The notes under the pieces: model-generated | What the model was told of the DNA's origin: nothing | What the model saw: the letters and a program-made list of their open reading frames with translations, nothing else | The model's database searches: none | Made by a program: the position numbers and the translations under genes | Assembly: GCA_031282525.1 (NCBI GenBank) | Contig: JAITDN010000002.1 | Coordinates: 1 to 56,469, forward strand | Source of the DNA: Candidatus Endomicrobiellum basalitermitum | Lineage (GTDB): Bacteria; Elusimicrobiota; Endomicrobiia; Endomicrobiales; Endomicrobiaceae | Direction: 5' to 3' | DNA: 56,469 nucleotides | Part shown: positions 11,301 through 31,546 of the stretch, in pieces | How the letters are laid out: each line of letters begins with the position of its first letter | Position numbering within the stretch: position 1 is the stretch's first letter

Positions 11301-11877
11301 CAAGCCCATTATCCATAATTTCTATATAAAAATTATCCTTACCAAAAATGCCGCAATATTCTATTGCGGCATTTTGCGCTTTTTCAAAACTCCCTTTAAA
11401 TAAATAAGACGCAACTTCACCTGCAAGACAACCCGAAAGAGCAATTAAACCCGAACTGTATCTCTTTAAAATTTCCTTATCAACACGCGGTTTATAGTAA
11501 AAACCCTCAGTAAAGCCTACGCTCACAATTCGCATAAGATTTTGATAACCTTTAAAATCCTTGGCAATCAAAGTTAGATGATTATAGTTCTCGTAGTTTT
11601 TATTCCTAGTATTGCTTCTATCAAATCGTGATTTTGGGGCGACGTATACTTCACAACCTATTATAGGCTTTATACCGCTCTTCTTTGCAGATTGATAAAA
11701 TTCAATAGCTCCATACATATTGCCGTGGTCAGTAATAGCGAGAGCAGGCATTTTATATTCTTTAGCTATCAAATCAAAAAGCTCACTCGGATTACCATTA
11801 TCATCTGTAACTCTACACGCACCATCAAGAAGAGAATATTCAGTGTGATTATGCAAATGTACAAATTCTGCAGCCAT
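8335..11877 (-). CDS. dnaE: DNA polymerase III alpha subunit
   Basis: This is the replicative polymerase, 1180 residues, normal for DnaE1. The N-terminal PHP domain begins FVHLHNHTEYSLLDG. The polymerase palm carries PDLDIDFADSGRDEII with the catalytic aspartates, and GPGRGSGAGAMVAY precedes it. A helix-hairpin-helix region and an OB-fold (VSGMIVVIKKLISKTKKELY, about residues 1010-1080) follow. AGGAT precedes the ATG. It is encoded so that the leftward replication fork from the origin at 19 kb transcribes it co-directionally. It is followed by serS. Confidence 0.98.
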   Translation of the reverse strand: MAAEFVHLHNHTEYSLLDGACRVTDDNGNPSELFDLIAKEYKMPALAITDHGNMYGAIEFYQSAKKSGIKPIIGCEVYVAPKSRFDRSNTRNKNYENYNHLTLIAKDFKGYQNLMRIVSVGFTEGFYYKPRVDKEILKRYSSGLIALSGCLAGEVASYLFKGSFEKAQNAAIEYCGIFGKDNFYIEIMDNGLEDQHKVIPDLIKLSKRTSIQLVATNDCHFLRKEDYQIHDILLCIGTGKILDDSKRLHFGSDLFYYRSAEDMQKTFSYVPEAIKNTLEIAEKTNVEIAMDKLLLPLFPVPEGYKSDSEYLETLCRKGIALRYGSRVGREQEDRLKHELSIINKMGFASYFLIVSDFIKYAKDHGISVGPGRGSGAGAMVAYTLGITDICPLKYGLLFERFLNPDRHSMPDLDIDFADSGRDEIINYVRQKYGEERCVQIITFGSMQSRLVIKDVARVMGFTPKESNSIAKLIPQNVSIAEALKNSEELSNLVKSDEKIEKLITASRKLEGLKRHTGVHAAGMVIANEEITNYSPLAKGSKDIVTTQYDGVVLPQLGLLKVDFLGLRTLTVIDECIKYIKEKNPNFNLDCISLNDGKTYELLSEAKTMGVFQLESRGMRDLIRKLKPSEMGDIIALIALYRPGPMGSGMLDDFVNRKHGKTKIAFDHPLQESILKDTYGIILYQEQVMKMSEILAGFTPGEADNLRKAMSKKIPEVIEKEREKFISGANKKDVNKKTAEKIFNNIVAFAGYGFNKSHSAAYASISYRTAYLKANYPLEYFTALLNSEIGRSVVKDNEESKLVMYLDDMNNFGIKLLPPDVQYSNGEFKIEDSNIRFGLLAVKNVGEGVTSSIEQARFNGVQINNFKDWNDFLHRIDLNSINKKAIESLVKAGVFDSFGSNKFAIRAALLKNMDSSIDEVAKAKQDKESVQGFLFDITDEATMSVPSLKKGESESRLLEPFKAFEFEKEVLGFYLSGHPLIDKKEDLAAYSNFRLDKLTLLKEDTDLKVCVSGMIVVIKKLISKTKKELYARFKIEDLHGTVDAVLFPKSFKKFGDYLKPNNVVVVKGRLTGFQGQVELLVEEIMTIDEAKEKFPIECKQIHIMFPTSKYDESLCEKLKKIFEKYKGETRVYIDLEDALRGSFSLETKYLSDCSDSFISDVEIAIGSKHSVELRHVDGYTK

Positions 11878-17846: not shown

Positions 17847-17866
17847 TTATCAACAATTGTTGATAA
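17847..17866. promoter_or_regulatory. Palindromic pair of DnaA-box-like sites upstream of dnaA
   Basis: TTATCAACAATTGTTGATAA is a perfect 20-bp palindrome formed by two inverted TTATCAACA boxes two bases apart. TTATCAACA differs from the classical TTATCCACA at one position. The site is 12 bp before the dnaA start codon, between its promoter and its ribosome-binding site. Confidence 0.8.
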
Positions 17867-17878
17867 CATGGAGATAAT

Positions 17879-19234
17879 ATGAATATTCCTGTTTTAGATT
17901 TATGGCAAAAGGTTGTTAATAACATTAAACCATCTATGACTGCGGAGACTTATAATTTGTGGGTCAATCCTTTAAAACCTATAGCTCTTGAAAGTAACAC
18001 TTTTATTTTAGAAGTCCCCAATACATATTTTTCACAATGGATAGCAAATAATCAACAGAAAAATATTGAACAAACTCTTTCATGCTCCTGTGGATATCCA
18101 ATAATTTTAGAGTTGAGACCAAAACAAAATATATCAGACATAATAAAAAAAGTAGAAGACACTCCTAAACGCGTAGATATACCACTCCAAACAATGCAAA
18201 AAGACCAGATAAATCATAAATATTTCTTTTCTGGTTTCGTCATCGGTACATCTAATAGATTTGCACATGGATGTTGTGAAGCAGTCGCAAAAAACCCAGG
18301 TAAACAATTTAACCCTTTATTCCTTTACAGCGGAGTGGGATTAGGAAAAACGCATCTATTACATGCTATAGGAAACTTTATAAAGCAGTCAACACCAAAT
18401 TTAAAAGTCCTTTATGTCACATGTGAGAAGTTTGTCACGGAATTCATAGAATCAATTCGCTTTGACAAAATATCAAACTTTAAAAGCAAATATAGAAGCT
18501 TGGACTGCCTACTGATTGATGACATCCAGTTTTTAGTAGGCAAAGAAAGCTCTCAAGAAGAATTCTTTCATATGTTTAACAATCTCTTTGATTCAAAAAA
18601 GCAAGTTGTTATCTCTTCTGACAGACCACCAAAAGAACTTGAAGGTGCTGAGGAAAGGCTAATTTCAAGATTTGAGTGGGGTATTATAGCCGATATACAG
18701 CCCCCAGATTTAGAAACAAGAATCGCGATCTTACGCAAAAAATCCGAGGAAGATAAAGTATATATTCCAGATGATGTTATTTTACATATAGCAAAACAAA
18801 TTAAATCAAACATAAGACAACTTGAGGGTTCTTTATTGAAAATAAGCGCTTTTTCAGAGTTTACAGGCGTACCTCTAACTATGGACTCTGTACAAAAAAT
18901 GCTTAAAGATATCATAAAAACAGATGATCATAAACAAATAACAATAGAAGACGTACAAAAAGTTATTTCAGAAGAATTTAATATAGATATTAGAGATTTA
19001 AAATCAAAACGCAGAACAGACGCTATTGCCTTCCCAAGACAAATTGCAATGTATCTTGTGAGAACACTATCTGATGAGTTTTCAACCACAACAATTGGTA
19101 ACGCTTTTGGAGGAAGAGACCATTCTACTGTTATGTATGCCTGTAATAAGGTAAAAGAAAAAATGAACTCTGATCCGTATTTCAATGCCAAAATTAATCA
19201 GATTGTCAAAAAAATACGCGATGCAACAGAATGA
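17879..19234 (+). CDS. dnaA: Chromosomal replication initiator DnaA
   Basis: DnaA binds DnaA boxes and melts the origin. The 451-residue protein has domain I (about 1-85), a short linker, the AAA+ domain with Walker A GVGLGKTH (about 152-159) and Walker B LLIDDIQFL (Asp214-Asp215), and the C-terminal DNA-binding domain with the signature GGRDHSTVMYACNKV. GGAG stands 5 bp before the ATG. The plus strand through this gene is C-rich, so dnaA is on the lagging strand of the leftward fork, unlike dnaN. Confidence 0.98.
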   Translation: MNIPVLDLWQKVVNNIKPSMTAETYNLWVNPLKPIALESNTFILEVPNTYFSQWIANNQQKNIEQTLSCSCGYPIILELRPKQNISDIIKKVEDTPKRVDIPLQTMQKDQINHKYFFSGFVIGTSNRFAHGCCEAVAKNPGKQFNPLFLYSGVGLGKTHLLHAIGNFIKQSTPNLKVLYVTCEKFVTEFIESIRFDKISNFKSKYRSLDCLLIDDIQFLVGKESSQEEFFHMFNNLFDSKKQVVISSDRPPKELEGAEERLISRFEWGIIADIQPPDLETRIAILRKKSEEDKVYIPDDVILHIAKQIKSNIRQLEGSLLKISAFSEFTGVPLTMDSVQKMLKDIIKTDDHKQITIEDVQKVISEEFNIDIRDLKSKRRTDAIAFPRQIAMYLVRTLSDEFSTTTIGNAFGGRDHSTVMYACNKVKEKMNSDPYFNAKINQIVKKIRDATE

Positions 19235-28168: not shown

Positions 28169-28184
28169 TGTTTCACGTGAAACT
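28169..28184. promoter_or_regulatory. parS centromere site
   Basis: TGTTTCACGTGAAACT matches the bacterial parS consensus (TGTTTCACGTGAAACA) at 15 of 16 positions and is a near-perfect palindrome. It lies 38 bp before the parA pseudogene and less than 1 kb before the intact parB, where ParB would load. Confidence 0.93.
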
Positions 28185-28221
28185 TGTGAATCTGGAGGAG
28201 AGTATTAAATGGAGTTTTTTA

Positions 28222-28995
28222 ATGCGTAAGATAGTTGCGATAGCTAATCAAAAAGGTGGAGTTGGAAAAACTACAACCGCAATTAATCTAGCGGTTAGCT
28301 TGGGCACATTTGGGGGTGTAAATGTTTATTGATTGATATGGACCCGCAAAGTGATACGACTACTGGGTTTGGGATTAATAAAAATGTTCTTGAAAGAGAT
28401 ATTTATGATGTTTTAGTAAATCAAATTACTTTAGAAAATATTCTTCATAATACTATTATAAATCGGCTTGATCTTGATCTTGTGCCTGCGACTACCGGCT
28501 TAAGTGGAGCTGAAGTAGATTTAGTAAATATGAATGACAGAGAGAAAAAGTTAAAATTTGCATTGGAAAGATTTCATGGAATGTATAAATATATTATTAT
28601 AGATTGCCCCCCCATCTCTTGGATTACTCACAATAAATGCTTTGGTTGCAGCGGATAGTGTTTTGATTCCTATGCAATGTGAATTTTTTGCCTTAGAAGG
28701 ACTAGGGCAACTTTCGGAGACAATCTCTGTATTGATGCAAAATTACAATTTAAATTTAGAGGGTGTTCTGTTTACAATGTATGATTCCAGAGCTAACTTA
28801 GTAGAACAGGTAGTAGGAGAAGTGAAAAAGTTTTTTAAAGAAAAGGTTTGTGAAACAAAAATACCAAGAACGATAAAACTTGCTGAAGCGCCAAGTTTTG
28901 GGAAGCCTGTTTTGTTATATGATCCATCGTGTAAAGGTGCTCAAGCTTATTTAGATTTTGCAAAAGAGTTTATTGTAAGGCAAATTTTAAGATGA
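28222..28995 (+). pseudogene. parA: Chromosomal ParA (Soj) with two homopolymer frameshifts
   Basis: The gene starts at 28222 with [20 protein letters not shown], a normal Walker A. The frame is lost in a run of five G (about 28313-28317), continues in another frame from [14 protein letters not shown] to IIIDCPP, is lost again in a run of seven C (about 28607-28613, six expected) and returns to the first frame for TINALVAADSVLIPMQCEFF through the end at 28995. Restored, the product is about 257 residues, of normal length and well conserved. The two shifts cancel. They may be real recent mutations, sequencing errors or sites of slippage. parB follows after 147 bp and is intact. Confidence 0.85.
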
Positions 28996-29142
28996 GTTTT
29001 AACAGGTTATTGGGTTTTGGATTGTAAAATTTGAAAAGTTTGTAGACAAGTTGTATAAATATACATTAAAATTCTGTTTTATATTAGTAATTAATCAATG
29101 ATGTTTATATATTTTTATTAACTATAAATAATGGGAGAGTTT

Positions 29143-30015
29143 ATGTATAAGAAGGCATTGGGAAGGGGATTGGAATCTTTAATGCCGTTATTAATGACAA
29201 ATAGAGCATCTATAGAGGAAAAAATAATAACGATACCATTAAACAAAGTTAAATCTAATAGATTTCAGCCAAGAAATAAATTTGATGAGACAAAACTTCA
29301 AGAACTCGCGGATTCAATAAAAAAGCATGGACTTGCTCAACCTATTTTGGTTTCTGAGTTAATAGTTTCGGGTGAGTATGAAATTATTGCAGGAGAAAGA
29401 AGATTTAGAGCATCTAAACTGATTGGCAATAAGGATATAAAGGCTATAGTAAGACATTCTGTAAATGACAGGCAGAGATTTGATTTAGCATTAATTGAGA
29501 ATATTCAGAGAGAAAATTTAGATCCCATTGAAGAAGCAAAAGCTTTTAAAAGACTTGTAGATGAATTTGGACATACACATGAACAGATTGCAAAAATTGT
29601 CGGTAAAGATAGACCTGTAGTCTCGAATGCATTAAGACTTTTATCTTTACCTGAAGATGTTCAATTGCTAATAAGTGAAGGTAGAATTTCGTCAGGGCAT
29701 GGCAAGATTCTTGCTGGTATAAATAATGGGAATAAAATAAGAATGATTGTAAATAAAATATTAGATGAAAAACTCTCAGTAAGAGCAGTAGAGAAAATTG
29801 CCTCAAGTATTGGTTTTAATGAGAAATCTTACGGACAAAATAAACAGAGGCAAGAACAAGAAATAGAATTGGTGAATTTGAAAGAAAAAATTCAAAGAAA
29901 ACTTGACACAAAAGCAAATGTTTTTGGAACTACTAGAAAAGGCAAAATAGAAATTTATTATTACTCTTTAGAGGATTTTGAAAGAATTACAAAAGAACTT
30001 AATTTTACCTGTTGA
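29143..30015 (+). CDS. parB: Chromosome partition protein ParB
   Basis: ParB binds parS and spreads as a CTP-dependent clamp. The 290-residue protein begins MYKKALGRGLESLMP, has the N-terminal ParB/Srx domain (IPLNKVKSNRFQPRNKFDE, GEYEIIAGERRFRASKLIG), the arginine-rich clamp motif GERRFRA, a helix-turn-helix (HEQIAKIVGKDRPVVSNALR) and a C-terminal dimerisation tail. The start at 29143 has GGGAGAG upstream. It is intact although parA just before it is broken. Confidence 0.95.
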   Translation: MYKKALGRGLESLMPLLMTNRASIEEKIITIPLNKVKSNRFQPRNKFDETKLQELADSIKKHGLAQPILVSELIVSGEYEIIAGERRFRASKLIGNKDIKAIVRHSVNDRQRFDLALIENIQRENLDPIEEAKAFKRLVDEFGHTHEQIAKIVGKDRPVVSNALRLLSLPEDVQLLISEGRISSGHGKILAGINNGNKIRMIVNKILDEKLSVRAVEKIASSIGFNEKSYGQNKQRQEQEIELVNLKEKIQRKLDTKANVFGTTRKGKIEIYYYSLEDFERITKELNFTC

Positions 30016-30130
30016 TAAGTTGATTTTGTTTTTTTGTTTAAAATATGAATATAAGAATATGTTATGAAGATAATTCACAAAAATATGTTGAAAAATAAAT
30101 AGAATTTGCTTGTTGATAAATTGTTGATAA
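30010..30130. promoter_or_regulatory. Cluster of DnaA-box-like sites between parB and the Pif1-like helicase gene
   Basis: TGTTGATAA occurs at 30010-30018, 30111-30119 and 30122-30130, with a near copy TGTTGAAAA at 30086-30094, all in the same direction. The last two are 11 bp apart, about one helical turn. The first overlaps the last codons of parB. The same nonamer makes up the dnaA-region boxes. It could be a DnaA-titrating or DnaA-reactivating site, part of the origin, or a control region for the helicase gene at 30272. Confidence 0.6.
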
Positions 30131-30271: not shown

Positions 30272-31546
30272 ATGATAAATAAGATTGAAATAAATGATGA
30301 ATTTAGACAAGCGTATAATTTGATAAACAAAACCTGTGATTGCGTTTTCATTACAGGAAATGCGGGTAGCGGTAAGACTACTTTTTTGCATTATTACATG
30401 TCTTGTGCGGGTAAAAAGGCCGTTGTTCTTGCAACTACTGGTGTAGCTGCTCTTAATTGTGGTGGTGAGACGATACACTCATTTTTTAATTTTAAACCTG
30501 ATGTGACTATTTCAAAAATAAAAAAAAAGAAACTTTCCCCAAAATCCATATATAAAAAAGTTGAAACAATTATCATTGACGAAGTTTCAATGTTGCGTTG
30601 TGATGTTTTGGACTGTATAGATAAGTTTTTGAAATTAAATAGAGAAAAACTTCAAAACCCGTTTGGTGGTGTGCAAATTGTTTTTATAGGAGATTTAAAA
30701 CAATTGCCTCCTGTAGTAAATAAAGAAGAGCAATATATATTTAATTCCATATATGAATCTCCTTATTTTTTAAGTGCGAATTCGCTAAAAAAATGTGTTC
30801 TAAATATTGTAGAATTTAAGAAAATATATAGGCAAAAAAACACTGAGTTTATAAAATTATTAAATGCTGTACGTGATGGTGAGATAACTGATAGGGATCT
30901 TGAAGAACTTAACAAGAAGGTGTCGGTTAATATTTTAGATGGACCGATGAGAGTATATTTGACAACTACAAATAAAAAAGCTACGTCTATAAATCGTAGC
31001 TATCTTTCAAAAATAAAACATAAACAGGCAATTTTTACTGCGAAAACTGAAAATATTAAGAAAGGTTTAAAAGCTTTTCCGGCGGAGCATGACCTTGTGA
31101 TAAAGAAAGGTGCTCAGATAATGATGTTAAATAATGATGTAAATTATAGATGGGTAAATGGTAGTATTGGTGTAATTAAAGATATAAAAAATGATAGTTA
31201 TTCTGACAATACATTAATACATGTGAAGTTTCCGAACGGAATAGTTGAGTGTGTTGAGCCTTATAAGTGGGAATTGTTTAAATATAAATGGAATGAAGAG
31301 CTAGAACAGATAGAAACTGAAAGTGCGGGTTTTTTTAAACAATACCCCCTAAAACTTTCGTGGGCGATTACTATACATAAAAGTCAAGGAAAAACATTTG
31401 ACAATGTTATTATAGATATGGAGCAAGGCCCATTCGTTCTCGGACAATTGTATGTTGCATTAAGTCGTTGTACTTCTTTTGATGGAATAACACTTTCAAG
31501 GCCACTTAGCAAAAGAGATATTCTTGCCCCCAGGTTTCCATTTTGA
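30272..31546 (+). CDS. Pif1/RecD-like SF1B DNA helicase
   Basis: The 424-residue protein has Walker A GNAGSGKTT (29-37), TTGVAALNCGGETIHSFF (motif Ia region), DEVSM (motif II), GDLKQLPPV (motif III), a 2B-like insertion and motifs V/VI SWAITIHKSQGKTFDNVIID and YVALSRC. These place it with Pif1-type helicases, which unwind DNA 5' to 3' and clear G-quadruplexes and R-loops in eukaryotes and some bacteria. It is short, with no N-terminal extension. It follows the DnaA-box cluster after parB. No ribosome-binding site is obvious. Confidence 0.88.
   Translation: MINKIEINDEFRQAYNLINKTCDCVFITGNAGSGKTTFLHYYMSCAGKKAVVLATTGVAALNCGGETIHSFFNFKPDVTISKIKKKKLSPKSIYKKVETIIIDEVSMLRCDVLDCIDKFLKLNREKLQNPFGGVQIVFIGDLKQLPPVVNKEEQYIFNSIYESPYFLSANSLKKCVLNIVEFKKIYRQKNTEFIKLLNAVRDGEITDRDLEELNKKVSVNILDGPMRVYLTTTNKKATSINRSYLSKIKHKQAIFTAKTENIKKGLKAFPAEHDLVIKKGAQIMMLNNDVNYRWVNGSIGVIKDIKNDSYSDNTLIHVKFPNGIVECVEPYKWELFKYKWNEELEQIETESAGFFKQYPLKLSWAITIHKSQGKTFDNVIIDMEQGPFVLGQLYVALSRCTSFDGITLSRPLSKRDILAPRFPF

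Follow-up and report, generated by a model that had tools for sequence, protein, structure and literature searches.

Chromosomal loci that control DnaA, such as datA and the DARS sites, are known in detail mainly from Escherichia coli. In datA, a non-coding array of DnaA boxes outside oriC, there is one IHF site, and boxes 2, 3 and 7 are essential (PMC10950094). DnaA boxes are also over-represented near the E. coli oriC, where they have been argued to titrate DnaA (PMC12371093). In Bacillus subtilis, DnaA-box clusters (DBCs) are found close to, but outside, oriC, and their joint removal leads to early initiation, as stated in PMC5295017 with reference to Okumura et al. (2012). For the Elusimicrobiota, no report of a dedicated DnaA-control locus was found in the literature searched.

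Here we describe a candidate for such a locus in the Endomicrobiaceae, whose named representatives, Candidatus Endomicrobiellum and Endomicrobium, include termite-gut endosymbionts and free-living bacteria (PMC11257099). The stretch of DNA analysed (hereafter the window) comprises 56,469 nucleotides from Candidatus Endomicrobiellum basalitermitum, and carries genes for an rRNA adenine dimethylase, dnaA, dnaN, gyrB, gyrA, an amino-acid permease on the opposite strand, parA, parB and a Pif1-like helicase (pif1). An earlier note on this DNA had pointed to three exact nonamers in one direction at 30010–30130, two of them 11 bp apart, and their coordinates and strand were confirmed. Box A, TGTTGATAA, occupies 30010–30018 on the forward strand and overlaps the parB stop codon (TGA, 30013–30015); it aligns by column with the corresponding box of 33 other modules described below. 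Boxes D1 (30111–30119) and D2 (30122–30130), likewise TGTTGATAA on the forward strand and placed by the module alignment, form the tandem pair.

The note's chance expectation of one or two copies per window agrees with the computed value of 1.26 ± 1.09. The window holds seven exact copies of TGTTGATAA, a number reached in none of 100 shuffles; the enrichment that the note had reported therefore stands, whereas its count of six copies, all near non-coding spots, does not, the seventh lying at 11477 within an ORF of 1180 amino acids. A same-strand triple within 121 bp arose in 0 of 400 dinucleotide shuffles, and for 719 kb the expected number is about 1e-5. Over the whole 719-kb genome there are 35 exact nonamers, compared to 18 for the reversed control, and no other triple among these 35 is as tight as that at 30010–30130. 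The nonamer is thus moderately enriched genome-wide, yet this triple is exceptional, and the objection that ordinary intergenic regions might show similar densities fails because dense triples are rare elsewhere. A separate cluster at C4:365154–370318 was considered and dropped, as its five nonamers extend over 5 kb and two of them are inside a UvrD-like helicase ORF.

When the spacer between parB and the helicase gene was compared in relatives, the cluster proved to be conserved, which answers the further objection that it might lack conservation. The conserved unit is a module of ~165 bp, consisting of box A (TGTTGATAA), ~75 bp, motif B (TATTGAAAAATCAAT), motif C (TTATGTTAAGTAG) and then tandem boxes 11 bp apart (for example TGTGGATAACTTGTTGATAAC in relatives); box A and the pair are separated by 143–147 bp in most of them. 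A sequence model extending from just before motif B through the box pair matched 33 of 77 Endomicrobiaceae genomes (E <= 1e-5), with one match per genome, and the window lineage comes in addition to these. The same model gave no match at E <= 1e-4 in 7 genomes of the order that belong to other families. Within the genus the module is sited 3′ of parB, and it is also present in free-living Endomicrobium species. It is absent from the near-complete genomes G013 and G032, and is therefore not essential; in G012 and G009 it is broken. In general, absence of the module is weak evidence, because many of the genomes are incomplete metagenome assemblies.

Thirty-one model matches were aligned with the window, G014 and G038, and the resulting 34 modules have order and spacing in common, relatedness being left out of the comparison. 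Mean column conservation is 0.89–0.92 in the boxes, 0.90 in motif B and 0.81 in motif C, compared to 0.54–0.64 in the stretches between them. Within the nonamers, positions 1–3 and 6–9 are 88–100% constant across the 34 modules; position 4 is almost always T or G and position 5 can be any base, and only these two vary freely. This pattern matches the DnaA box TTATN(C/A)ACA, as expected for putative DnaA boxes. On the complete 1.11-Mb chromosome of G039, the module is the sole site where 165 bp contain three relaxed boxes. For Endomicrobium proavitum (G085), 520 kb were read, made up of 160 kb surrounding the origin and 18 scattered samples of 20 kb each; three-box sites occurred there only at the module and upstream of dnaA. 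The contigs of G082, G083 and G086 that were read show the same two sites.

By synteny and alignment, the window cluster is a derived form of this module. Its box A-to-pair distance is 101 bp, as in G014 and G038, because ~44 bp including motif C (TTATGTTAAGTAG) have gone; the deletion junction, seen as an alignment gap at 30100–30110 on the forward strand and shared with G014 and G038, places motif B beside the box pair. Because of this deletion the window scores under the model threshold, and its membership of the module family consequently depends on synteny and alignment. A degenerate motif B, TGTTGAAAAATAAAT (family consensus TATTGAAAAATCAAT), is recognised at 30086–30100 on the forward strand by alignment with relatives. 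The near copy TGTTGAAAA at 30086–30094, which had been counted as a further DnaA-box-like member of the cluster, is what remains of this motif; a fourth DnaA box at 30086 was accordingly dropped, the alignment pairing this sequence with motif B of relatives. As the module core has decayed in the window organism, only the boxes appear to be maintained there, and motifs B and C do not.

The state of motif B can be related to the HU/IHF-family genes, of which most Endomicrobiaceae genomes have two. A single such gene was seen in G000 (the window genome), G014, G038, G033, G004, G012 and G009, and all of these have either a decayed motif B or a broken module. Mismatches to motif B are fewer where the second HU gene is present (one-sided Mann–Whitney p = 0.0009, within the genus, with kinship ignored and few losses). 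There are exceptions in both directions: G027 has the second gene and a decayed motif B, and in G016 the second gene is a pseudogene (L338, G016:C49) while motif B is intact. The association suggests that an HU/IHF paralogue may bind motif B. The motif does not fit the E. coli IHF consensus. Intrinsic A-tract curvature at the DNA helical repeat found no support, the values at 10.3–11 bp being like those of shuffles, with a rise only at 11.5–12 bp. The single HU/IHF-family gene of the window genome is located at G000:C4:193600–194200 (L330), the HU paralogue of G085 is encoded at 1274192, and the second HU gene of G010 (L341, G010:C13) is cut off by a contig end.

Among the described systems, datA is, like the module, a single non-coding array of DnaA boxes outside oriC, and its IHF site would correspond to motif B, the candidate site here for a protein of the HU/IHF family; the module likewise has several boxes, recognised from their sequence, in non-coding DNA outside oriC. 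It differs from datA in its three same-facing boxes with a fixed span of 143–147 bp, in motif C, which is without a known counterpart, and in that IHF would be replaced at best by an HU-type paralogue in its hosts. The oriC-proximal DBCs of B. subtilis share with it a box density above chance outside oriC, but they comprise six redundant clusters, whereas the module is a single, strongly conserved locus that has two additional motifs. Origin-proximal titration in E. coli also involves DnaA boxes near the origin, spread as a raised density over a wide region rather than confined to one compact locus; a sink of the kind proposed here would agree with it (PMC12371093). The module may thus work like datA or the B. 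subtilis clusters, and membership of a datA family is not claimed.

On balance, with slightly better than even confidence, we favour the explanation that the module is an origin-proximal locus which sequesters or inactivates DnaA by means of its candidate boxes and a possible HU/IHF-type site. Its arrangement has been kept across the family even where neighbouring genes decayed, which makes it likely that the module is a control site retaining DnaA and helping to time chromosome replication. The role in titration, or a datA- or DARS-like one, that the earlier note had considered is also the one that best fits a cluster conserved in relatives and rare elsewhere. DnaA would occupy box A and the tandem pair D1–D2, set at a fixed distance (143–147 bp in most genomes, 101 bp in the window), and an HU/IHF-type protein at motif B would bend the DNA so that DnaA at A and D could form a single complex. 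Being close to the origin, the locus would double soon after initiation, and the extra copy would withdraw active DnaA, through sequestration or stimulated ATP hydrolysis, and so help to block premature re-initiation. Against this explanation, the module is dispensable, and intergenic DnaA sites may also regulate transcription.

The opposite effect on initiation would result if the module acted like DARS, promoting ADP release and supplying ATP-DnaA. DARS1 and DARS2 of E. coli, which control the nucleotide state of DnaA, are likewise single, short, non-coding arrays of DnaA boxes, and DARS2 uses IHF (PMC4245941); moreover, the direction of an effect cannot be read from sequence alone. The module differs from both sites in location, lying near the origin as an early-duplicated sink would, and probably in box orientation. 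The boxes of the E. coli DARS cores are oppositely oriented, whereas those of the module all face the same way. A DARS-like role is hence considered unlikely.

We regard as equally unlikely a transcriptional role in which module-bound DnaA would act on pif1 or on read-through from parAB. In the window the module lies between parB (29131–30015) and pif1 (30272–31546), both on the forward strand, and in most Endomicrobiellum genomes read pif1 begins no more than ~1.3 kb past the end of parB, an arrangement that would suit transcriptional control. Neither neighbour is required for the module. G038 has a broken pif1 and heavily degraded copies of parA and parB, but its box positions are 27/27 identical to those of the window, compared to 76% for the rest of the spacer. 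The module persists in G027, where parB is broken, and in G008, where no parB was found and the module lies ~1.1 kb ahead of pif1 with another gene between them. An insertion parts it from pif1, ~1 kb away, in G026, and additional sequence separates it from parB or pif1 in G003, G016 and G026. In G043 the module is found in another gene context, with parB on a different contig, and neither there nor in the free-living relatives read is pif1 next after it. Since the module is kept with these genes dead, missing or apart, it is not simply a pif1 promoter or a part of parB. The suggestion that DnaA controls the helicase gene likewise lacks support: intact boxes are found with a dead pif1 (G038), with pif1 about 1 kb off (G026, G008) and with no pif1 following (free-living relatives, G043).

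More doubtful still is a second, backup or former replication origin at the module, although its tandem boxes with 11-bp spacing adjoin an AT-rich core. In G024, G041, G082, G083, G085 and G086, the cumulative GC-skew minimum, where oriC would be expected, falls at dnaA or no more than a few kb away from it, and not at the module. In the window, the skew switches at the intact dnaA (17879–19234, forward strand), the gene for the presumed binder, or a few kb to its left. A main origin at the module was dropped for this reason, GC skew placing the origin at dnaA. Wherever module and dnaA share a contig they are ~10–98 kb apart, which rules out a compact bipartite origin; in G024, the distance is 48 kb, and dnaA and parB are oppositely oriented. 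The split origin proposed in the note is not borne out, as the skew switch remains close to or at dnaA however widely this distance varies. By eye, motif C (AAGTAG) ends at least 20 bp ahead of the pair, no DnaA-trio-like run of triplets abuts the pair, and motif C is absent from the window lineage.

The other box cluster of the window lies directly ahead of the dnaA start, where the nonamer, as the note had said, recurs; it is a convergent pair, TTATCAACA-AT-TGTTGATAA, at 17847–17866. Relatives have TTATCCACA-AT-TGTGGATAACTTGGGGATAA at this site, and the 11-bp tandem TGTGGATAACTTGGGGATAA just upstream of their dnaA resembles the module pair. The convergent boxes suggest autoregulation of dnaA. 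As separate observations, a DnaA-like protein in G043 (L265, G043:C5:2700–4052), which also has an ordinary dnaA, is 37% identical to the window DnaA, and another in G092 (L264, G092:C172:473–1822) is 42% identical.

The module of G039 bears on both the favoured explanation and a second origin. Here dnaA (L064, G039:C1:1–7647) is a pseudogene with a 6.3-kb interruption and stop codons, and the module is retained. G039 is very probably Endomicrobiellum trichonymphae, for which an interrupted dnaA and, in this dnaA-less state, an atypical GC skew have been published (PMC10579323). Were DnaA the sole reason for conserving the boxes, their retention with a dead dnaA would be unexpected, except after a recent loss; between G039 and G041 one box position differs, the freely varying one, and there are too few changes for a test of box decay after dnaA loss. 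The skew minimum of G039 is at dnaA, but the skew is almost flat over the first 120 kb, module included, and G039 alone therefore cannot exclude a shift of the origin. That the module might serve as a second initiation or licensing site supporting replication in dnaA-dead endosymbionts such as G039, where it is the only compact box array left, we consider a shade less probable even than a second origin in general.

A part in chromosome segregation, whether as a ParB-associated site or as a connection between DnaA and ParAB, is highly improbable: the module does adjoin parB in most genomes having both, but it is kept where parB is dead or missing and lies apart from it in G043, and parS-like sites are found upstream of or around parA, outside the module. 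No match to the parS consensus was found within the module; in the window, a parS-like site with one mismatch, TGTTTCACGTGAAACT, lies at 28169–28184, just upstream of parA. Two frameshifts break the window parA (28219–28986) into three pieces, whereas the parB frame is open, and the partition genes appear to be decaying in the window lineage; unlike that of the window, parA of G014 is intact. Finally, a structured RNA or RNA control element can be dismissed as scarcely credible, since the module is conserved and non-coding but its consensus fold is without any base pair, and Rfam gave no match in the window and weak matches far under the cut-offs in two relatives.

For a locus that sequesters or inactivates DnaA, natural variation would allow the parts of the module to be tested one by one, since there are lineages in which motif B, one HU gene, parB, pif1 or even dnaA has been lost. 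If this explanation is true, chromosomal control of DnaA would extend to another phylum, in the form of an origin-near site of fixed architecture that is conserved across the family and outlives its neighbours.
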